Positions 7,518 to 48,577 of a stretch of DNA of 64,000 nt are shown piece by piece. Both the position numbers and the translations under genes were made by a program. The first letter of the stretch is position 1; each line of letters opens with the position of its first letter. Source of the DNA: Pandoraea pneumonica (GTDB taxonomy: Bacteria; Pseudomonadota; Gammaproteobacteria; Burkholderiales; Burkholderiaceae). The stretch lies in contig NZ_CABPSK010000002.1 in the NCBI RefSeq assembly GCF_902459645.1, positions 1,178,001-1,242,000 on the forward strand, written 5' to 3'. A model generated the notes under the pieces. That model was not told where the DNA came from, ran no database searches, and worked only from the letters and a program-made list of their open reading frames with translations.

Positions 7518-9389
7518 CTAGTAGACGAGTTGCGCGTTGATGTCGCGCAGCACGGCCAGGCCCAGCTTTCTAAAGGCGGGATATTGCTCGGGTGCGATTG
7601 TCATGCCGGTGGGCGTGAGACGCAGCGTTCGCGTCACCGTGAGCACGCGGCCGTTGGCCTTGTAGCTCGACCGATAGCTGCCAAGCGGCGAATCGATACT
7701 TACGGGCTTCGGCAAATTCGCCAGCTTGACCTGCTTGGGCAGCGTGATGATGGTCGTTTCTGTCACCTGGCGGCCAGCAAGCGGCATCGCGAAATCGCGC
7801 GATTCCACGCTCATCGCGGTGAAGGTGGAGGCGATGTTGACGAACCCGGACAGCCCGCGTGGCACTTGCATCGCACCGGGGCCGGGAAGTTGCACGTAGC
7901 CGGGCTGTTCAAACGCAGTCTGATACGCGAAGGGTTTGGCGAAATCGCGCGGGTCGCCATGCGTGAAGTCGCCCTGACCGCTGCGACCGCCCGCGCTCAG
8001 CATCTGACTGGCCAGCGTGGACGTCGTGCCTGCGGGAACCGACGCGAAGATTTGGCGCGACACCCAGTCGAACATGCCGCTCGTCGCAATCTCTCCGGTG
8101 CCCTTCAGATTGCCGTCGTCGTCGAGCACCACGCGCGTGGTGATGTCGATGCGAGCGTTCTCGGGGGTATTGGCGGGCAAGGTCACCATCTTGGCGCGCC
8201 CAGTGCCGTCGTCGGCGACGAGTGCCAACTTGCCGGCCTCGGTGACGGGCAATGTGCCGAAGCGAGCGACGCTCGCGGTCGAATCCACGAAGAGATTGAA
8301 TTCCGGCAGATAGGTGATCGCGTGATTGAAGACGCCCAGCGGCGCCGCTACCTTCGGCAGCCAGTATCCGGTGCCGGCGTTCACGAGCACCGGGCTGCTC
8401 TTGATGCCCTTGGCGGCGAGCAGGGATTCGAGCAGCGTGACGTGGTCTTTGCAGTCGCCGTATTTTGCGTCGAGGATGGCAGACGCCTCGTGCGGCACGA
8501 CACCCCCAAAGGCCAGATAAACGCCGACATAGCGCACGTTCTTGGTGACCCATTCGTACAGGATCTGCGCTTGCTTGCGACGGTCGGTCACCCCTTGGGT
8601 GAGGCTATCGGCCAACGTCTGAATGGCCGGTGTCACTGCAGCCTTGGGAAGTGCGCGTTCGTTATAAGCAGCCGCGACAGACGCGAAGTCGGGGAACGTC
8701 GTGATCGCGACACGCGGGCTGTGATCCACCAGCGCGACCGAGCCGGGTTCCGGCGCGTGGGCTGGGGTGTTGGCGAGCGTCCACTGCCATTGCTGCGTGT
8801 CGGGATTGGTAGACGTTTGCAGGCCGCCTTGCATGTCGATCGCATCGACATTCAGTTTCAGCGTGGCAGGCGCGCGCACGACGAGGCGAACCGACTGATA
8901 AGGCTTGTCTACGCCGAAATACTCGATGGCGGAGAATTGGCCGGGGAAGAGCGCTTGACGCTGCGTATAGCGCGTTTTCAAGGTCAGCGTGGCGCCGATT
9001 TCGGTGGCCGGGAAGATGACAGTCTTGACCTTGCCGTCATCGAACATCGGTGCGCCGGCGCTTTCGCGGCTTTGTTGCACGATGATCTTGTCGGCAGCCA
9101 CGTCGATACGCTTGCCGTCCTTCGTGGTGGTATAGGCGTCCTCGACAGCGAGATCTTGCAACGACGTGCTATACCGCATCGCGACTTGGCTATTCGCCTT
9201 GACCGCGCGGTCGGTCTCCAGACGGAAGTGTCGTGTCTCTTCGCGGGTGAAGGTGCCGTCGGCGTTGATGTCGTAGATGACCTCGTCGGCAAGCACGGTG
9301 ACGTCCGGCTCGAAGGCGGCGGCGTGTGCAAGGGCGCACGTGCCGATCGTCCCCAATATTGCAACTACCCCGTAAATGAATTGGCGCAT
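7518..9389 (-). CDS. DUF3857 and transglutaminase-like domain protein, exported
   Basis: 623 residues. Residues 1-23 form a signal peptide ending ALAHA. DUF3857 covers roughly 40-220. A transglutaminase-like core spans about 255-390, with Cys313 in AKYGDCKDH and a His-containing strand (GVFNHAITYLPEFNLFVDST) completing the usual Cys-His-Asp set. The C-terminal third is a beta-rich DUF2569/3858-like segment. Expected in the periplasm or envelope. Biochemical function of this architecture is not settled; protein cross-linking or peptidase-like activity is inferred from the intact triad. It lies downstream of the orphan nuoA-like gene on the same strand. Confidence 0.85.
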   Translation of the reverse strand: MRQFIYGVVAILGTIGTCALAHAAAFEPDVTVLADEVIYDINADGTFTREETRHFRLETDRAVKANSQVAMRYSTSLQDLAVEDAYTTTKDGKRIDVAADKIIVQQSRESAGAPMFDDGKVKTVIFPATEIGATLTLKTRYTQRQALFPGQFSAIEYFGVDKPYQSVRLVVRAPATLKLNVDAIDMQGGLQTSTNPDTQQWQWTLANTPAHAPEPGSVALVDHSPRVAITTFPDFASVAAAYNERALPKAAVTPAIQTLADSLTQGVTDRRKQAQILYEWVTKNVRYVGVYLAFGGVVPHEASAILDAKYGDCKDHVTLLESLLAAKGIKSSPVLVNAGTGYWLPKVAAPLGVFNHAITYLPEFNLFVDSTASVARFGTLPVTEAGKLALVADDGTGRAKMVTLPANTPENARIDITTRVVLDDDGNLKGTGEIATSGMFDWVSRQIFASVPAGTTSTLASQMLSAGGRSGQGDFTHGDPRDFAKPFAYQTAFEQPGYVQLPGPGAMQVPRGLSGFVNIASTFTAMSVESRDFAMPLAGRQVTETTIITLPKQVKLANLPKPVSIDSPLGSYRSSYKANGRVLTVTRTLRLTPTGMTIAPEQYPAFRKLGLAVLRDINAQLVY

Positions 9390-41193: not shown

Positions 41194-42168
41194 ATGGAAA
41201 ATCGTCTCGTCGTTGCGTTGGCTTATGACCGGCTCTGTACGTTTGAATTTGGCTGCGTCACGGAATTGTTCGCACTGGAGCGCCCCGAACTCGGCGTCGA
41301 CTGGTACCGCTTCAGCGTTTGCGCTATCGAGCCCGGACCGCTGCGCGCGGCTGGCGGCATCACCGTCGCCGCGCCTTACGCACTCAAGCGACTCGACAGC
41401 GCTGACACGATCGTGGTGCCCGGATGGCGCGATCCGGATGAACTGCCGCCTGAGGCGTTGCTGAAGAAGATTCGCGCGGCCCATCGGCGCGGTGCGCGTC
41501 TTTGCTCGATCTGTTCCGGCGTATTTGTATTGGCGGCGGCCGGCGTGCTCGACGGCAAGACGGTGACGACTCACTGGCGCTACGCCGAGAAACTACAGCA
41601 GCGGTACCCGAATTTATGCGTGCAGTCGGACGCGCTGTATGTCGACGAAGGTCAGATCATTACGTCGGCGGGATCGGCGGCGGGGCTCGACATGCTCCTC
41701 CATCTGGTACGACGCGATTACGGAAGCGCAGTGGCCAATCGGGTTGCCCAGCGGCTTGTGGTGCCTCCGCACCGTGAGGGCGGTCAGGCGCAGTTTGTGC
41801 CACGACCGATGCCGCGCGACGAAAGCGGACGTCTGGCGAAGTTGATCGACTGGGTACGCCAACACCCGGCCTTACCGCACACCCTACGCTCGCTTGCCGA
41901 ACGCGCGGCGATGAGTCCGCGCACCTTACAGCGGCATTTTCAGGACGCTACCGGCATGGCGCCCTATGAATGGCTGACGCACGAGCGTGTGGCGGTGGCG
42001 CGAGAGCTGCTCGAAGCGCAACCGTCAATGCCGATGCTGCGCATCGCCGAGCTGGCAGGTTTCGGGTCTGAAGAATCGATGCGCAGACACTTTCGACGCA
42101 TCGCCCATACGAGTCCGGCCGCCTATCGGGAGAAGTTTGGTCATGACGCTCGGACGCGGAAGGGTTGA
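41194..42168 (+). CDS. ftrA: GlxA/FtrA-type AraC regulator with DJ-1/PfpI domain
   Basis: 324 residues. N-terminal DJ-1/PfpI-like domain (1-185) with the nucleophile-elbow analogue SICSGVFVLAAAGVLDGKTVTTHW at about 107-130, then two AraC HTH units (TLRSLAERAAMSPRTLQRHFQDATGMAPYEWLTHERVAVARELLEA and MLRIAELAGFGSEESMRRHFRRIAHTSPAAYREKF). Matches the transcriptional activator annotated FtrA in Burkholderiaceae. Divergent from a rhodanese gene. The effector is unknown. Confidence 0.87.
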   Translation: MENRLVVALAYDRLCTFEFGCVTELFALERPELGVDWYRFSVCAIEPGPLRAAGGITVAAPYALKRLDSADTIVVPGWRDPDELPPEALLKKIRAAHRRGARLCSICSGVFVLAAAGVLDGKTVTTHWRYAEKLQQRYPNLCVQSDALYVDEGQIITSAGSAAGLDMLLHLVRRDYGSAVANRVAQRLVVPPHREGGQAQFVPRPMPRDESGRLAKLIDWVRQHPALPHTLRSLAERAAMSPRTLQRHFQDATGMAPYEWLTHERVAVARELLEAQPSMPMLRIAELAGFGSEESMRRHFRRIAHTSPAAYREKFGHDARTRKG

Positions 42169-42209: not shown

Positions 42210-42258
42210 TGGCTGCCGTTCTTTAAGGGCGGCTTTTGACCCAAAGTGGCCGCTCAGG
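42210..42258 (+). repeat. cassette-spacer repeat, copy 0 (left boundary of array)
   Basis: Contains the 3' core TTGACCCAAAGTGGCCGCTCA, close to copies 4 and 7. GCGGC (42229-42233) pairs with GCCGC (42249-42253). It lies 42 bp beyond the ftrA stop and 34 bp before the first array gene. Confidence 0.6.
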
Positions 42259-42291
42259 ATGTCACATAGCTGTCCTTCGTACACTCCCGTT

Positions 42292-42729
42292 TTACTCGAC
42301 TTCGATCCACTGCACTCGGACATCGGGCAAAGCAAGAACGTCTAGCAGATCGTTCATGCAGACGATCGAAAAGTGTTGGCGATTCTCAGTGCCAGGCAAG
42401 TTCATATACTGCGATAGCCACGCAGAATTTTCGACGATGACTGCCGGGAGGACCCATTGACTCCATTCTCTCGCTTGGCACTTGGGCCTTGATCGAGCCG
42501 ATGACTGAATGACAGAGCCGTGGAACTCCTCTATCCATTGCAGACCTATGACGCCCGAAAAGCATAGCTCCAAGTCCGGCTTCTGCGGTTCGGTGCCAGT
42601 ATTTAGAAGAGAAAAGCGCATCACGACTCGGAGTTCATCGCGTGTATTGAACTGAAATTCGAGATCGGGGCAAGGGAAGTCCACTTCCGCTAACGCCTCC
42701 CAATGCATCGCTCTTTCGGACATACTCAT
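42292..42729 (-). CDS. hypothetical protein, array gene 1
   Basis: 145 residues from the ATG at 42729; an ATG two codons on is equally possible, and the longer frame to 42843 would run back into a spacer repeat. Acidic, beta-rich, no membrane segment (EFQFNTRDELRVVMRFSLLNTGTEPQKPDLELCFSGVIGLQWIEEFHGS). No family recognised; its size and composition resemble immunity-type proteins. Less GC-rich than ftrA next door. Repeat copy 0 follows its stop. Confidence 0.65.
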   Translation of the reverse strand: MSMSERAMHWEALAEVDFPCPDLEFQFNTRDELRVVMRFSLLNTGTEPQKPDLELCFSGVIGLQWIEEFHGSVIQSSARSRPKCQAREWSQWVLPAVIVENSAWLSQYMNLPGTENRQHFSIVCMNDLLDVLALPDVRVQWIEVE

Positions 42730-42793
42730 TTCCGTTTTCTCGAAACGCGGCGAGGAGCAGGACATTATTCTCGACGATTCCTGAATTGATGCC

Positions 42794-42832
42794 GAACGGC
42801 CGGAACCGGCCGCAAGCAGGTGCTTGCCGAAC
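42794..42832 (+). repeat. cassette-spacer repeat, copy 1 (degenerate)
   Basis: The core CCGGCCGCAAGCAG aligns with CCGACCCGAAGCAG of copy 2; the 5' half is reduced to GAACGGCCGGAA. Lies between array genes 1 and 2. Confidence 0.45.
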
Positions 42833-42873
42833 GACACGGCCATGCATTTATGGTTAAGGCTGGCGCGAGATCG

Positions 42874-43215
42874 TTACGACGCGCTGCTATCCGTCACCAG
42901 CAACGGGTTAACCACCTCTATGATTTCGGCTTGTCCGATTACTCGCGCTCCCTCTGCAACGTCCAATACGCGACCGGTCCAGAGTGTATGTGGATAGGCC
43001 TCCGGTGTACTCAGCCAGACCTCGGCCAAGCACTGCTCGCGTGTTGCCAAGCTACGCCCCTCCGCGAACTCGTGATGGGCTGACGACCAATAGTCTGGCA
43101 GGATTTCGTAGATCGGACGATAGCCCGTCCGGACGTGCTTTACAGTGCCCTCGTGTGTAAGCGCGGTCAGCATGAACATCACCAGCAAGTCGGGTGGTCG
43201 GATTGGACGGCTCAT
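42874..43215 (-). CDS. EF-Tu domain 3-like small protein, array gene 2
   Basis: 113 residues. The pattern HVRTGYRPIYEI...STPEAYPHTLWTGRVLDVAEGARVIGQAEIIEVVNP resembles the third beta-barrel of elongation factor Tu (R-GYRP near the start, G-R-V-GxAxI near the end) without any GTPase domain. AGGAACC precedes the ATG. Such stand-alone barrels are known as small hypothetical proteins; a decoy, immunity or RNA-binding role is speculation. Flanked by repeat copies 1 and 2. Confidence 0.65.
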   Translation of the reverse strand: MSRPIRPPDLLVMFMLTALTHEGTVKHVRTGYRPIYEILPDYWSSAHHEFAEGRSLATREQCLAEVWLSTPEAYPHTLWTGRVLDVAEGARVIGQAEIIEVVNPLLVTDSSAS

Positions 43216-43293
43216 GTAGTGGTTCCTGAAAGCTTGTACAGGAGAACGACATTCAAATTGTCGCCGATCCAGACGTCGTTCTCGGTAGACCGC

Positions 43294-43355
43294 GTCTGCT
43301 CCGACAGCCGCCCGACGCGGTCGGCTGAAGCCGACCCGAAGCAGCCTTACGAATT
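43294..43355 (+). repeat. cassette-spacer repeat, copy 2
   Basis: CTGCT (43296-43300) pairs with AGCAG near the end, enclosing a perfect hairpin GTCGGC-TGAA-GCCGAC (43320-43335). The core CCGACCCGAAGCAG is shared with copies 1 and 7. Lies between array genes 2 and 3. Confidence 0.65.
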
Positions 43356-43434
43356 TTCCACAAGCAGACGTTCAAAATGGCTTCTCGTGGACCGCTTGTA
43401 ATTTTTTGCCTCCCAACAAGAATGGGAACGCAGG

Positions 43435-43845
43435 ATGAACCCGATTCTGCAGGACCTACAAACAGCGTTTATGAACGAGTTGCAATCTCGCTACGACCAG
43501 ACTGGCCGAGGATTGCAGCTTTCAACAAACGACATTGACCGCTGGACCGAGATTGTTGGATCGACGACACGGCACGCATACGATGTGATCGCTCGCCATC
43601 TAGCGGTCGGGTTTCATGAGCGCCGATACCCTTTTTGGTTCTGTGACGCAGTCGTAAACGCGGTTATCGCTTTCGTTTATGACGATTTTTTCCAGAGGGG
43701 AGAAGACTTCCCCGCTTTGTTTTACAAAATCTATTTGGCGTTCGATGCAGGCGAAGTTGAGCGAGAGGGGATGGATCCGATTGAGGTCTACACGCGCCCC
43801 ATGATTGAGGAAATTGTTCGCAATCTAGCCGAAGAGGCTGGATGA
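43435..43845 (+). CDS. hypothetical protein, array gene 3 (inverted relative to others)
   Basis: 136 residues, acidic, helical and aromatic-rich (ERRYPFWFCDAVVNAVIAFVYDDFFQRGEDFPALFYKIYLAFDAGE), no signal or membrane anchor. No family recognised; looks like the small acidic immunity or DUF-type proteins of polymorphic toxin loci. It is the only plus-strand gene of the array. Its stop codon abuts repeat copy 3. Confidence 0.7.
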   Translation: MNPILQDLQTAFMNELQSRYDQTGRGLQLSTNDIDRWTEIVGSTTRHAYDVIARHLAVGFHERRYPFWFCDAVVNAVIAFVYDDFFQRGEDFPALFYKIYLAFDAGEVEREGMDPIEVYTRPMIEEIVRNLAEEAG

Positions 43846-43910
43846 CTGTTCATGGCCGGATGCAGGCAAATGCGAGAGGCGGTTTTCGACTCGGAGCGGA
43901 CATTAGAAAC
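43844..43910 (+). repeat. cassette-spacer repeat, copy 3
   Basis: Begins GACTGTTCATGGCCGG and ends TTCGACTCGGAGCGGACATT, aligning with copies 4 and 7 over its whole length of about 67 bp. It begins within the stop codon of array gene 3. Confidence 0.65.
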
Positions 43911-43982
43911 ACAAGACTTGCGAGGCCCGCCCGTTTTGTATTCCTCTGATAGTGATGCGATCCAGATACGTGTTTTGTCGGG

Positions 43983-44420
43983 CTACGATCCGTTGGACAC
44001 TGAGGCCATGCAGTCAATCTGAGTTTGGGGAGAGCTCAACGCCTGACATTTTTTTAGCTCAGGTGCCAAGACCTCGAGACCCTTCATGGATTTCCCAAGC
44101 GTTTGATTCGCACATTCAACCCAGCGATACATGCGATGGGAGTGCATCGATAGCTCGTTGTGTTCGTACACGCTTTTGACGATTACTGGCAGCTTCGCCC
44201 GCGTTGCATCAGACTCGGGTATGCCAGCATTCATCACTGCCAACGCCACTTCTTCAGTTGCACCGTTGTCGCGAAGGTTAGTGGCAGTTGCAGCTGCCAA
44301 GCCAACCTTCTTACAGCTCTCCGATTTCAGAGCGCCCACCATGTCCACTTGGGCATGTGACACGACGGCGATCAAAAACAAGACGGAGCCAACAGCAATT
44401 TCATTCAATTTGCCAAACAT
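43983..44420 (-). CDS. hypothetical exported protein, array gene 4
   Basis: 145 residues from the ATG at 44420 (GGAGAG site upstream). Signal peptide of about 23 residues (MFGKLNEIAVGSVLFLIAVVSHA), then a helical domain with three or four cysteines (SESCKKVGLAAATATNLRDNG, RWVECANQTLGK, ELKKCQALSSPQTQIDC) suggesting disulfide bonds in the periplasm. No family recognised. Repeat copy 3 lies downstream and copy 4 upstream. Confidence 0.7.
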   Translation of the reverse strand: MFGKLNEIAVGSVLFLIAVVSHAQVDMVGALKSESCKKVGLAAATATNLRDNGATEEVALAVMNAGIPESDATRAKLPVIVKSVYEHNELSMHSHRMYRWVECANQTLGKSMKGLEVLAPELKKCQALSSPQTQIDCMASVSNGS

Positions 44421-44494
44421 TGATCTCTCCGAAACCATAAATACGGGGTTGAGTCCGACATTCTGCGTCGTACAGGGCCACCAAAATGATAGTA

Positions 44495-44561
44495 GATCCG
44501 CTCTTGGCCGATTTCGGCCGGTCGTGGGCGTCCGTTCCCGACCCAAAGCGGACATTCATCG
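44495..44561 (+). repeat. cassette-spacer repeat, copy 4
   Basis: TCCGCT (44497-44502) pairs with AGCGGA (44547-44552). Inside, GGCCGA faces TCGGCC and GGTCG faces CGACC. Best representative of the family, with a 3' end CGACCCAAAGCGGACATTCA. Lies between array genes 4 and 5. Confidence 0.75.
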
Positions 44562-44577
44562 CGAAGGGCGGTGCGCC

Positions 44578-45273
44578 TCAGTCCGATTCTGAACGAACCT
44601 GCGGGAATCGTTTGAGAGGAGAGAAATCCACTTTCCAGATGTCAAGTTCGAACAACTCGTCGTAATTGTCTAGCGACAACGCTACAAAGATTGGGACCCC
44701 ATCAGAATCAGGAAACTCCTCCCTGTAGATATCCTGACTGAGCACGCGCTCTTGATTTTGGGAGTCGAAGCGGAGGCTCCCCATCCCACCATCGTTCAAT
44801 TCTTCGACAAGGCACGTTGAGAGAGAAACGCCCACTTCAAGCTTCTGAGCTGTTCCTCGAAGCATATGTCTGATCAATGCAATCTCAGCTTCGTTTAGAG
44901 TTCTGAGCGTCTTGCCGTGGTGAACTGTCAGGAGAGGTGCGCGTACCGATTTTGGAGAGTAATCGGTGAATTTCGATACGACCCAATCGGCGTTCTCTTT
45001 ATCGTACGAGTTTGCAGTGATCGGCATCATGCTCAGTTCGTAAAGTTCATCCTTCCCATCAGGCATAACCTGCCACGCAGTCGGCTCGACACCATATGTT
45101 TGCTCTGCCTCCAGCTTGGCGTCATCCAATGTTGGATGCCAGTGGTCCCCTTCAACATCGCGAGTTGAAAAAGAAAAATACCGGATGAGAAGGACACCGT
45201 CGGTCAGCCCAAGGATCAGAACTGACTCAATTTCAGGCCACTCCGGCGAGTTGGCTTTTGCCCATATGCGCAT
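44578..45273 (-). CDS. hypothetical protein, array gene 5 (DUF6984-like C-terminal part)
   Basis: 231 residues from the ATG at 45273, with GGAGGC before it. The N-terminal half (about 1-100) resembles small beta-rich immunity-type domains (WPEIESVLILGLTDGVLLIRYFSFS). The C-terminal half has RTLNEAEIALIRHMLRGTAQKL...LVEELNDGGMGSLRF, the layout of DUF6984. A fusion of two modules is therefore likely. No membrane segment. Followed by repeat copy 4. Confidence 0.7.
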   Translation of the reverse strand: MRIWAKANSPEWPEIESVLILGLTDGVLLIRYFSFSTRDVEGDHWHPTLDDAKLEAEQTYGVEPTAWQVMPDGKDELYELSMMPITANSYDKENADWVVSKFTDYSPKSVRAPLLTVHHGKTLRTLNEAEIALIRHMLRGTAQKLEVGVSLSTCLVEELNDGGMGSLRFDSQNQERVLSQDIYREEFPDSDGVPIFVALSLDNYDELFELDIWKVDFSPLKRFPQVRSESD

Positions 45274-45333
45274 GGTTGCCTCCAATTTTCGCTCTCGCAC
45301 CGATCGTCGATGATCCAGTTCATCGCGTCGACG

Positions 45334-45400
45334 GTCCGCTTCTGGCCGATCTCTGCCGGTCGCAACGGCTCGCTTGCGACTTGTTGCGGACTTACAGTAA
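45334..45400 (+). repeat. cassette-spacer repeat, copy 5
   Basis: GTCCGC (45334-45339) pairs with GCGGAC (45386-45391) and GTCGCA (45359-45364) with TGCGAC (45375-45380), giving a long interrupted hairpin. The 5' half matches copies 4 and 7 (TGGCCGAT, GCCGGTCGC). Lies between array genes 5 and 6. Confidence 0.75.
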
Positions 45401-45420
45401 GGCCTGCGGTTGCCCCTTCT

Positions 45421-45762
45421 TCAACCCCAGGTTATGGCGCGGTTGAGGGCGGGTTCAAGGTCCACAAGTGGCATTTGTGTAGTAGGACTCATCGTCGCAA
45501 GTTGCTTGGCACAGTCGATATCGACACTCAGTTGTTCTGGCCGATGATTTCCCGGAAACTTCCTGACGACCAGATAAACCGTGTTCTCGCTAAGCCAAAC
45601 GCTCTTGTCCATTGACCAAGATTTGTCTTCAAACGAAAGTATGTACAGATGTCGCTCTGCATCCCAAATGCTTGGGCTGTACACCCAAAGCGAATGCCTT
45701 GCCTCCCAGACCTCAGCCTGTACTTGAAAGCGTCCGCTTGGTGAATTAGAGATTATTTCCAC
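45421..45762 (-). CDS. hypothetical protein, array gene 6
   Basis: 113 residues from a GTG at 45762 preceded by ACAGG. A longer frame to a TTG at 45840 would translate through repeat copy 6 and is unlikely. Beta-rich and aromatic (AEVWEARHSLWVYSPSIWDAERHLYILSFEDKSW). No family recognised. Followed by repeat copy 5. Confidence 0.6.
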   Translation of the reverse strand: MEIISNSPSGRFQVQAEVWEARHSLWVYSPSIWDAERHLYILSFEDKSWSMDKSVWLSENTVYLVVRKFPGNHRPEQLSVDIDCAKQLATMSPTTQMPLVDLEPALNRAITWG

Positions 45763-45783
45763 GTATTTTTGCCTGTTGGTTAG

Positions 45784-45814
45784 GTCCGCTCTTGGCCGAA
45801 AGCAGACGTCTGCC
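45784..45814 (+). repeat. cassette-spacer repeat, copy 6 (short form)
   Basis: GTCCGCTCTTGGCCGAAAGC followed by AGACGTCTGC: the 5' and 3' ends of the family joined with the middle missing. Lies between array genes 6 and 7. Confidence 0.65.
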
Positions 45815-45823
45815 TCACCATTG

Positions 45824-46231
45824 CTAGGGGTATGGGACAAACTCCGTCAGTTCCCCCCATCTCTGATGAAGCCTCAGTGACCTGCCATCAATCGTCACCC
45901 TGATCAAAAAATTGTTGTCGCAACGCAAGAGGACTTGGGTATCGGACAGTGCTTCGTGGGATTCAAGCAATGTCGTGTCGTACATCGCTCCAATGCTCTT
46001 CTCGTCCAACGTATTGAACTCACCATCGGTAAGCGTGACGCTCAAGGAGTCGTCCCCGCAATCCCAAGAAGTAACAATGAGATGCGAGCCTGCGCATGGG
46101 TACCACGCATCAAGGACGTACCCGAGAATCCATTTTCCTGTTGGCAGGCCGCAAAACAGCAGTTCACTCCTCAGGTCCCAGGAAGCGCGAGGCTCTTCGC
46201 GTTGTCTAAGTGCGATTTTGGTGGATGGCAT
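45824..46231 (-). CDS. hypothetical protein, array gene 7
   Basis: 135 residues, beta-rich and acidic in the second half (GDDSLSVTLTDGEFNTLDEKSIGAMYDTTLLESHEALSDTQVLLRCDNNFLIRVTIDG), with no signal or membrane segment. TAGGT lies before the ATG. No family recognised. Repeat copy 6 begins 10 bp after its stop. Confidence 0.68.
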   Translation of the reverse strand: MPSTKIALRQREEPRASWDLRSELLFCGLPTGKWILGYVLDAWYPCAGSHLIVTSWDCGDDSLSVTLTDGEFNTLDEKSIGAMYDTTLLESHEALSDTQVLLRCDNNFLIRVTIDGRSLRLHQRWGELTEFVPYP

Positions 46232-46292
46232 CTATATACCTACAAAACGGGGGCGATGGTTTTTTGACAACACTTTGGGATGCGAATTGAAC

Positions 46293-46360
46293 GACCGCTT
46301 CTAGCCAATTTCCGCCGGTCGCGGCGGACCGTTTCCGACCCCGAGCAGCCGTTCAGTCGG
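46293..46360 (+). repeat. cassette-spacer repeat, copy 7
   Basis: Full-length copy: GACCGCTTCTAGCCAATTTC start, GCCGGTCGCGGCGGACCGTT middle, CCGACCCCGAGCAGCCGTTCA end. The stop codon of array gene 8 lies inside its last bases. GGTCG faces CGACC internally. Confidence 0.75.
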
Positions 46361-46748
46361 TGCCTGATTTGGACTCACTTGATTCATAGCCTGCGAACGG
46401 CCCTACAAAGAGGAACCCCCTCGACAGCTTTTTGCGGACTTCTTTCTGGCTGGGAAAATACTCCGCGAACTCACTCCACGCTTGATTGACATATTCGTCC
46501 CACATCTTTGGGTCCAGTTCGTCAATCCTGCCGTCCGTGATGTCAACAACCTCGAAGCCGCGCCGCGTGATTTCCGAAACCGCGCTCCTTGCTGCTGTTT
46601 CGTGATTTGCCCCCGCGACAAAAACCGGCACACATGCCCCGATCATGTTGCTGGGCATTTCTTGATTTGCACCACGCTTGATGTGCAGCGTCATCCGAAA
46701 CAGCCCTGGCATTTCCTCTTCCTTCCTGTTCCCGAATATCCTGAGCAT
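46353..46748 (-). CDS. hypothetical protein, array gene 8
   Basis: 131 residues from the ATG at 46748 (GAGGAC upstream). Mixed alpha-beta, with NMIGACVPVFVAGANHETAARSAVSEITRRGFEVVDITDGRIDELDPKMWDEYVNQAWSEFAEYFPSQKEVRK, a small soluble domain with a helix-rich end. No named family recognised. It is the first gene of the minus-strand series, and its 3' end overlaps repeat copy 7. Confidence 0.7.
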   Translation of the reverse strand: MLRIFGNRKEEEMPGLFRMTLHIKRGANQEMPSNMIGACVPVFVAGANHETAARSAVSEITRRGFEVVDITDGRIDELDPKMWDEYVNQAWSEFAEYFPSQKEVRKKLSRGFLFVGPFAGYESSESKSGTD

Positions 46749-46791
46749 TGATCGTCCTCGTTGGAGCGCTTTTTGCGCAGCATACATGAGC

Positions 46792-46833
46792 GTCAGCGCT
46801 TGGCCGAAAGCGGTGGTAACACTTTGGCCGCTA
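46792..46833 (+). repeat. cassette-spacer repeat, copy 8 (right boundary of array)
   Basis: GTCAGCGCTTGGCCGAAAGCGG, a short form like copy 6, followed by TTTGGCCGCTAC that resembles copy 0. Lies upstream of array gene 8 with no further cassette to its right. Confidence 0.55.
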
Positions 46834-46981: not shown

Positions 46982-48577
46982 ATGCCTTCCAATCCGACCA
47001 CCCCGCATTCGGCGGGGCAGGTGTTGCCTTTCCGGCAGTCCATTGTGGCCATGCTTGGCCTCTGTTTCTGCACGATGTTGGTCGCGCTCGACCAGACCGT
47101 CGTCGGGACCGCGCTGCCGACCATCGTCGCTGAACTCAAGGGGTTCGAGTACTACGCGTGGGTCGCCACGTCGTATTTGCTCACCTCCGTCATTACCGTG
47201 CCGATCTTCGGACGGCTCGGCGATTACTACGGGCGAAAGCCGTTCGTCATCGCCGCTATCGTCGTCTTCACCGGGGCCTCGGTCCTATGCGGTGCCGCCA
47301 ATAGCATGCCGTTCCTCGTCATCGCCCGCGCGCTGCAGGGGATCGGCGGCGGCATGCTCGTGGGGACTGCCTTCGCCTGCATTCCTGAACTGTTCCCCGA
47401 TCCGCACGTCCGCCTGCGCTGGCAAGTCATGCTCAGCTCGGCATTCGGTATCGCCAACGCCATCGGCCCCTCGCTCGGCGGTTTTCTCACCGAAGCCTAC
47501 GGCTGGCGCTCCGTCTTTTATGTGAACCTGCCGGTCGGTTTGCTGGGGCTCTGGTTCGTTGCACGCCATCTGCCCCACATGCGCGCCGACGAGCACGGCA
47601 AAGCCAGCCTCGACTGGCTCGGCGCTTTGCTGATCGCCGCCGCACTCGGCAGCCTGCAAATGCTCGTCGAATGGCTCCCGGCCGATGGTTTCTCACGCGG
47701 CGTGTTTATTCTGCTCGTGGCCTTCGTCATCGCCTCGCTCGCGCTCTACTGGTGGGAACAACGCACGTCGCATCCGATTCTGCCGTTCGAAATGTTCCGA
47801 AACCCAAGTCTGGCGGCGCTCTTCGTGCTGTCGGTCTTCGGCGGTTTTGCGATGTTCGGCGTGCTGTTCTATGCGCCGCTGATGCTGCAAGGCGGCTTCG
47901 GTTTGTCGCCGCGTGAAACCGGGTTGCTGATTACGCCGATGGTGGTTTGCATCACCGTCGGCAGTATCGCCAATGGCCGCCTCATCACGCGCCTGCGTAA
48001 TCCGAACATGATGCTGTACGGCGGGTTTTTCCTGCTCGCTATTGCCTGCGCCGGTGTTATCACCACGCATCGCGGCACGCCGCATGGCCTTATCGCCACG
48101 TACATGCTGCTGGCTGGTCTCGGCCTCGGCTTTGTTCTGCCGAACCTCACGGTATTTGCGCAGGAAGTGGCCGGTCGCGCGCACCTTGGTATTGCAACCG
48201 CGCTCATGCAATCGCTGCGTATGATCGGCGGGATGCTGGGGACGGCAATCGTCGGCACGCTCGTGGGCCATAGCTATACGGCCCGCGTAAAGGAATCGCT
48301 CGCCGCTACCGGTGGTCAGCAATGGACCGCGCAACTCACCGATCCGCAGATTCTCGTGAATGCGCAAGCGCAGAACGATTTTCTGGCGACCGTCGCCCAT
48401 ATGGGGCAGAACGGTGCACTGCTGATCGAGGCGTCACGTACCGCGCTCGTCGGGGCAATTCACAACGGGCAGATGGTGTCGCTCGCGGCTGCGCTCGCCG
48501 GGCTTTGGTTCGTGCGCCGCGTGCCGCTCATTCGTCTGACCCGTGGTGCCAAACCGGCACCGCCCGCAGGGGAGTAA
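46982..48577 (+). CDS. MFS multidrug exporter, DHA2 (14-helix) family
   Basis: 531 residues with about 14 membrane helices. Motif LDQTVVGTALPTI after helix 1 (DHA2 motif D1), motif A GRLGDYYGRKP, and motif C-like GIANAIGPSLGGFL in helix 5, all typical of EmrB/QacA proton-driven efflux pumps. No strong ribosome site is visible before the ATG. Co-transcribed with the MarR gene that starts 5 bp after its stop. Substrates unknown. Confidence 0.9.
   Translation: MPSNPTTPHSAGQVLPFRQSIVAMLGLCFCTMLVALDQTVVGTALPTIVAELKGFEYYAWVATSYLLTSVITVPIFGRLGDYYGRKPFVIAAIVVFTGASVLCGAANSMPFLVIARALQGIGGGMLVGTAFACIPELFPDPHVRLRWQVMLSSAFGIANAIGPSLGGFLTEAYGWRSVFYVNLPVGLLGLWFVARHLPHMRADEHGKASLDWLGALLIAAALGSLQMLVEWLPADGFSRGVFILLVAFVIASLALYWWEQRTSHPILPFEMFRNPSLAALFVLSVFGGFAMFGVLFYAPLMLQGGFGLSPRETGLLITPMVVCITVGSIANGRLITRLRNPNMMLYGGFFLLAIACAGVITTHRGTPHGLIATYMLLAGLGLGFVLPNLTVFAQEVAGRAHLGIATALMQSLRMIGGMLGTAIVGTLVGHSYTARVKESLAATGGQQWTAQLTDPQILVNAQAQNDFLATVAHMGQNGALLIEASRTALVGAIHNGQMVSLAAALAGLWFVRRVPLIRLTRGAKPAPPAGE

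Follow-up and report, generated by a model that had tools for sequence, protein, structure and literature searches.

Background

Integrons are the best-known bacterial platform for storing and shuffling small gene cassettes, and the principle of mobile gene cassettes is already known. In integron cassettes the attC element holds two inverted simple sites, and the cassette's own 5' end is complementary to its own 3' arm. The dif/pdif sites of Acinetobacter alternate in orientation. The dif modules of this genus form linear multi-module arrays, as described in PMC12907356. Here we analyze a locus of Pandoraea pneumonica, in which eight small open reading frames (ORFs) and copies of a short repeat are flanked by an ftrA-like gene and by a gene for a DHA2-type exporter; the window, i.e. 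the whole stretch of DNA analyzed, comprises 64 kb (C2:1178001-1242000 of genome G000 in our set). An earlier note on this DNA considered the region to be either a new type of cassette, devoid of an attC core and of an integrase, or a palindromic repeat that carries genes. The former interpretation is supported by the clustering of the repeats, by the movement of single units with breaks inside the repeat, and by the results of searches for attC and for the integron integrase described below. We propose that the region probably represents an array of mobile gene cassettes on the chromosome, each composed of a small, mostly orphan gene and a terminal recombination site.

Apparent exchange of single gene units at the site spacers

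The repeat consists of one or two 30-bp sites, in which 11-bp inverted arms enclose an 8-bp asymmetric spacer, as judged from the consensus of 452 non-overlapping copies collected at 128 loci. The arms have the consensus AATGTCCGCTT / AAGCGGACATT, the spacer reads TGGGTCGA in the first core and TCGGCCAG in the second, and the spacers (GGGTCG, CGGCCA) are conserved to the same degree as the arms. A pattern scan of GTDB contigs returned at least 120 stretches; the full consensus, derived from 80 of them and from 10 viral contigs, is AATGTCCGCTTTGGGTCGAAAGCGGACATT, followed by a variable stretch and then by the second core, GTCCGCTATCGGCCAGAAGCGGACATT. The two cores of one repeat are roughly inverted copies of one another, and copies with a single core are numerous.

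Arrays of sister species, and likewise two arrays within a single Dyella genome, share single gene-plus-repeat units that stand beside different neighbors, at 88-95% identity, and the identity of the recurring units begins and ends inside the repeat. Cassette 6 (Table 1) is found near ftrA in the sister genome G015, with different neighbors and with unrelated sequence beyond both of its ends; the identity opens directly after TCGGCCA and closes at TCGGCCA. The unit that adjoins ftrA in G015 is also present in the second array of the P. pneumonica genome, and another unit of that second array occupies the gap between ftrA and the exporter gene in G003, with the downstream break in the right arm of the first core. 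In the Dyella kyungheensis unit that two arrays of one genome have in common, both ends lie at the first-core spacer. The unit of gene 1 was identified at a remote place of the sister genome G027 (90% identical); its ends do not lie clearly within a site. Separately, a 151-bp site-bearing stretch of D. kyungheensis (L154:6928-7230) is tandemly duplicated, with 98.7% identity.

Toward the exporter gene, the sequences of the window and of five of the six sister genomes compared are alike from the TGGCCGA motif (46801) onward; the sixth, G016, has no TGGCCGA motif on that side. Ahead of the motif, the window and the five relatives carry five different sequences, and only G022 and G015 share theirs. 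By analogy, we infer that this boundary site, whose chromosomal half those five genomes retain, may be the counterpart of an attachment site. In another sister genome, G009, the exporter-side boundary site and its flank are duplicated about 3 kb apart with 97% identity (L062:5728-5842 and 8968-9081).

Changepoints were mapped in homologous segments of at least 150 bases and 84% identity from 38 loci. Forty-seven of them lie at most 25 bases from a site and 31 lie within it, 22 of the latter in the two spacers plus or minus one base, i.e. in 20 of the 64 positions; with related junctions collapsed by hand, 13 of 18 are at spacers. Single units appear to be exchanged at two fixed points of the site, one per core. 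One site-equivalent per unit combined with a break at the spacer is the footprint of conservative site-specific recombination, and for this reason we read the units as mobile gene cassettes; a composite transposon would instead carry two whole repeats. The gene-carrying palindromic repeat of the earlier note fits less well, because the moved unit brings one site-equivalent and not two. Nor is the array content constant in relatives, a possibility that the same note had raised: other arrays contain single units whose breakpoints lie in the repeat.

This pattern points to tyrosine-recombinase chemistry with circular intermediates. A recombinase would exchange strands within the spacer and, given the shared orientation of the sites within an array, could excise a unit as a circle or insert it at any site, including the boundary sites beside ordinary genes.

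Distribution and organization of the arrays

A model built from 18 copies of the repeat identified matches at E <= 0.001 in 27 of the 32 genomes of the genus. In the genome of P. pneumonica there are 10 distinct places, of which nine fall in two arrays (five in the window and four in a second array on contig C1) and one, on contig C4, is solitary. In the genus set, 135 matches correspond to 124 places after 11 opposite-strand duplicates were dropped. Seventy-five of these have another place at most 6 kb away, compared to a mean of 1.6 and a maximum of 8 in 500 trials of random placement, and 49 are solitary by the same measure; the neighbors point the same way in 43 cases and the opposite way in 3. 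Such clustering argues against a genome-wide repeat without association to small genes, which the earlier note had named as the other possible outcome, and against dispersal untied to gene units, as in repetitive extragenic palindromic (REP) sequences or miniature inverted-repeat transposable elements (MITEs). In the stretches that were fetched, 67 of 70 site pairs within 5 kb have the same orientation, and the longest ORF runs along the site direction in 45 of the 67 units with an ORF.

At the level of the order, stricter filters (E <= 1e-8) left 5 of 300 Burkholderiales genomes with matches, including that of P. pneumonica itself. The site-bearing taxa among the GTDB matches listed include Lysobacter, Dyella, Rhodanobacter, Caulobacter, Phenylobacterium, Sphingomonas, Massilia, Halomonas, Nitrospinaceae and others. 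In the 80 stretches and 10 viral contigs used for the consensus, neighboring sites within 3 kb point the same way 195 times and the opposite way twice, and one Dyella stretch has 15 sites packed in 8 kb. One-way arrays of the same sites thus extend to Lysobacter, Dyella, Caulobacter, Sphingomonas and other taxa. Nine site-bearing genomes, picked for having loci, contain 18-53 pattern matches each and no match to the reversed pattern. A pattern match is present in 45 of 398 genomes sampled from the phylum, and 18 of the 45 have two or more; the reversed control pattern gave one match in each of about 10. A search of a plasmid collection revealed no match to a site of the window and one weak partial match to a Lysobacter-type site. 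Larger genes, encoding regulators and transporters, are also present near sites.

In Lysobacter arvi (L163) the end of an IS30-like element coincides with a site, and a 1.26-kb stretch is repeated across the arrays of Dyella jiangningensis (L262-L265). From its protein, we take this stretch of D. jiangningensis and L. arvi to be an IS30-type element; elements of this type may use the sites as targets.

The array of Pandoraea pneumonica

The features of the locus are collected in Table 1. The ORFs of the window agree with the earlier description of eight small genes, seven on the minus strand and one on the plus strand, between ftrA and the DHA2-type exporter gene. The lower GC content of the genes is likewise borne out, with 0.50-0.57 in ten 500-bp segments of the array and 0.56-0.68 in 14 segments of the flanks (at least 0.62 in 10 of the 14), as is the statement that most products have no known family: Pfam assigns a family above the cut-off to one of the eight, and searches of NCBIfam and PADLOC gave no match at E <= 0.01 for any of them.

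Table 1. Genes, sites and the moved unit of the array; positions are those of the window. HMM, hidden Markov model.
Feature	Position	Strand	Remarks
ftrA-like gene	41194-42168	+	Array flank
Site copy 0	42212-42252	-	Last array site, adjoining ftrA; HMM E 0.0003; mostly first core
Cassette gene 1	42292-42732	-	ORF, 146 aa; no family
Cassette gene 2	42874-43215	-	ORF, 113 aa; no Pfam family above cut-off
Site copy 2	43301-43348	-	Degenerate; HMM E 0.002
Cassette gene 3	43435-43845	+	ORF, 136 aa; no family; sole gene opposing the site direction
Site copy 3	43842-43904	-	HMM E 1e-10; seed member
Cassette gene 4	43983-44420	-	ORF, 145 aa; no family
Site copy 4	44497-44556	-	HMM E 3e-15; seed member
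Cassette gene 5	44578-45273	-	ORF, 231 aa; DUF6984 (Pfam PF22480, E 5e-33)
Site copy 5	45334-45393	-	HMM E 1e-11; seed member
Second spacer of site copy 5	45343-45349		TGGCCGA on plus strand; downstream end of moved unit, where G015 identity stops
Cassette 6 as mobile unit	45343-45799	-	Spans site 5, gene 6 and the start of site 6; in sister genome G015, 95% identical, both ends in site spacers
Cassette gene 6	45421-45768	-	ORF, 115 aa; no family
Site copy 6	45783-45810	-	Second core only; HMM E 0.004
Cassette gene 7	45824-46231	-	ORF, 135 aa; no family above cut-off
Site copy 7	46290-46353	-	HMM E 4e-14; seed member
Cassette gene 8	46353-46748	-	ORF, 131 aa; no family
Boundary site, exporter side	46791-46832	-	Copy 8 (46791-46816); weak HMM matches, E 0.29 and 4.3 with two models
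DHA2-type exporter gene	46982-48577	+	Array flank

A profile HMM trained on the genus found seven copies of the repeat in the whole window at E < 0.01, all on the minus strand; beyond these seven, the 64 kb contain no match under E 0.28, and a control with 20 block-shuffled windows yielded no match at E <= 0.05. The copies at 43842, 44497, 45334 and 46290 belong to the seed, so that the detection of these four of the seven is partly circular; the presence of the element in 27 of the 32 genomes is free of this circularity. The earlier note had counted nine repeats in the same orientation. Seven are recovered by the HMM and copy 8 is added by the comparison with relatives, whereas copy 1 (42760-42830) could not be confirmed, its best match on the minus strand having E 4.9 and those on the plus strand E 0.27 and 0.75. 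The array is real, with seven to eight of the nine copies standing. Copy 4 has an 80% identical counterpart in the second array of the same genome. At copy 0, some relatives diverge inside the site (model positions 4-13 or 49-54) and others only past it (75-87), which suggests, from these alignments, that part of this copy belongs to the ftrA flank.

The claim that several copies fold holds in part: as single-stranded DNA, copies 4, 5 and 8 fold better than their shuffled versions (z -2.5, -3.1 and -2.7), the effect is weaker in copies 2, 3, 0 and 7 (z -1.7, -1.1, -0.7 and -0.2), and the consensus fold of 18 copies comprises just 3 pairs. The longest ORF of gene 4 (43983-44555, MSALGRERT...) begins within site 4, and automatic annotation may thus assign it a false N-terminus.

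Candidate recombinase

The best candidate that we identified is a conserved Cre-like tyrosine recombinase, encoded at C1:1106626-1107849 of the P. pneumonica genome next to a kfrA-type gene. The protein exhibits the Cre fold with the full set of catalytic residues, and Cre is its nearest known structure, at about 20% identity. It is possible, if doubtful, that this is the enzyme that acts on the sites. A serine recombinase is not a constant companion of the sites: of 13 site-bearing genomes, 9 have a PF00239 match at E <= 1e-6.

Three further observations concern recombinase genes. A KfrA_N gene and a Cre-like recombinase gene form a conserved, divergent, chromosomal pair at L267:1447-3850. 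In Sphingomonas sediminicola, a divergent Cre-like recombinase (L304:9373-10521) is encoded about 1.8 kb from a site array (sites from 12292). In the sister genome G022, an integrase gene (L272:2712-3990), presumably of the P4 type, ends about 30 bp ahead of a site.

Weighing the cassette interpretation

A number of observations weigh against mobile cassettes served by such an enzyme. Of the 31 breakpoints inside sites, nine are not at the spacers, and 16 of the 47 changepoints lie outside sites, 12 of them at positions 75-87 (all from comparisons of the ftrA flank) and the remaining 4 at -8 or -15; moreover, 4 of the 47 have a poor inner alignment and were retained. The p values for the concentration at spacers (6e-6 and 4e-4) are guides only, because the events are not fully independent and because conserved spacers attract the estimate. 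With one genome per species compared, no gain or loss at the level of strains was seen. The longest ORF opposes the site direction in 22 of the 67 units, and in the mapped stretches of the Lysobacter family and Dyella (L154, L164, L206) the gene direction relative to the site is mostly reversed with respect to Pandoraea. Some of the 45 site-bearing genomes of the phylum sample may be due to chance, considering the matches of the reversed pattern in about 10. In three of the four stems tested, compensatory changes outnumber those of every one of 200 shuffles, and in the fourth they tie with the best one, lineage being uncorrected, and hence pairing may matter somewhat; in the first core there are 31 of them, against a shuffle mean of 17.4, and one-sided changes dominate (469 vs. 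31). The complementarity between the own 5' end and the own 3' arm, as in integron cassettes, did not reach significance (n = 10, P 0.11; other loci, P 0.27 and 0.43).

As for the enzyme, no recombinase was found repeatably beside the arrays, and the Cre-like protein is missing from the site-bearing Caulobacter sp. 17J80-11, Lysobacter soli, Dyella silvatica and two Burkholderiales genomes. Its co-occurrence with the sites in the 398 phylum genomes is partial: sites are present in 4 of 10 genomes with a close homolog vs. 41 of the 388 others (p 0.018), and in 11 of 61 with any homolog at E <= 1e-15 (p 0.08). Within the genus the association is confounded, since the four genomes with neither are also the four smallest.

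Could the host XerC/XerD instead act on the sites as dif-like targets, in the manner of the dif/pdif module islands of Acinetobacter, with no dedicated enzyme at all? Xer-type proteins appear to be the only tyrosine recombinases common to 13 genomes (in our reading of the two best-scoring matches per genome), 11-bp arms with a short spacer follow a dif-like design, and Acinetobacter modules form the linear arrays cited above. Nevertheless, we find this explanation unlikely: compared by eye, the arms (AATGTCCGCTT) look unlike the dif half-sites, the spacer has 8 bp and not 6, the sites do not alternate in orientation as those of Acinetobacter do, and five genomes of the genus without sites (G012, G018, G023, G025 and G030) also have Xer-like matches.

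Rather improbable is a REP- or MITE-like palindromic element located at gene ends, with the variable genes representing genomic-island content brought in by homologous recombination. It would agree with the palindromic cores, the copies at gene ends, the solitary sites (49 of 124), the larger regulator and transporter genes nearby, the IS30-like element ending at a site in L. arvi and the compensatory changes above shuffles. On the other hand, the moved unit has one site-equivalent and breaks at the spacer, as opposed to the two whole repeats of a composite element, neighbors point the same way 195 times to 2, one-sided changes prevail, and the repeat, with a mean column identity of 69% across 18 copies, is a poor substrate for homologous recombination.

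Finally, the attC box pair RYYYAAC...GTTRRRY is present in none of 166 full-length sites (0.26 expected by shuffling), as the earlier note had claimed for the core, and its statement that the window has no integrase can be extended to the genus, where no match to the integron integrase model TIGR02249 over the curated cut-off was found in 32 genomes. All 32, and likewise 14 of 14 controls, have weak TIGR02249 matches; the four in the P. pneumonica genome are halves of two proteins, which we read as XerC and XerD. A divergent integron, i.e. cassettes with non-canonical attC sites left behind by an integron integrase (a cluster of attC sites lacking integron-integrases, CALIN), is very unlikely and largely refuted by the missing core pair and integrase and by the 3-pair consensus fold, in spite of the integron-like layout of genes and sites in tandem and in one orientation (67 of 70 and 195 of 197 pairs), the orphan genes, the chromosomal boundary site, and a site with two inverted simple sites like attC.

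Implications

We tentatively suggest that alpha-, beta- and gammaproteobacteria possess a second, integron-independent cassette system, in which small genes held in one-way chromosomal arrays would be shuffled at 30-bp lox-like sites by a chromosomal Cre-like recombinase encoded at a distance from the arrays. We found no earlier description of these arrays among the titles listed in searches of open-access papers. If the arrays work like integrons with other sites, many proteobacteria would harbor a reservoir of uncharacterized genes, unseen so far because programs based on attC would not find the arrays. With the site consensus, such arrays can be sought in any genome, and the candidate enzyme opens the way to testing excision directly. 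Genome annotation may benefit too, as a site can be translated as the false N-terminus of a cassette gene, such as gene 4.

Comparison with known systems

The sites resemble those of Cre/loxP of phage P1 in that inverted arms surround an 8-bp asymmetric spacer, and the candidate enzyme is structurally nearest to Cre; they differ in the length of the arms (11 bp vs. 13 bp in lox) and in their unrelated sequence, and the candidate gene is chromosomal, with about 20% identity of its product to Cre. Like REP sequences, bacterial interspersed mosaic elements (BIMEs) and MITEs, the repeats are palindromic, intergenic and placed at gene ends, but they are clustered in one-way arrays and bound the gene units that are exchanged. 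From the dif/pdif modules of Acinetobacter they are distinguished by another arm sequence, the 8-bp spacer, one orientation per array and the many host genera. Common to both are gene modules bounded by short sites of the tyrosine-recombinase type and chromosomal multi-module arrays (PMC12907356). In comparison with integrons, the core of the site is a sequence-conserved, 30-bp, lox/dif-like element instead of a folded attC that bears GTTRRRY, some sites have just one core, the genus has no integron integrase at the cut-off, and gene direction relative to the site varies between clades. With integron cassettes and CALINs the arrays share tandem small genes of no known function, one site per gene in the same orientation, the exchange of units at fixed points of the site and a chromosomal boundary site; the arrays reported here appear to work like the integron cassettes described in PMC8618304.

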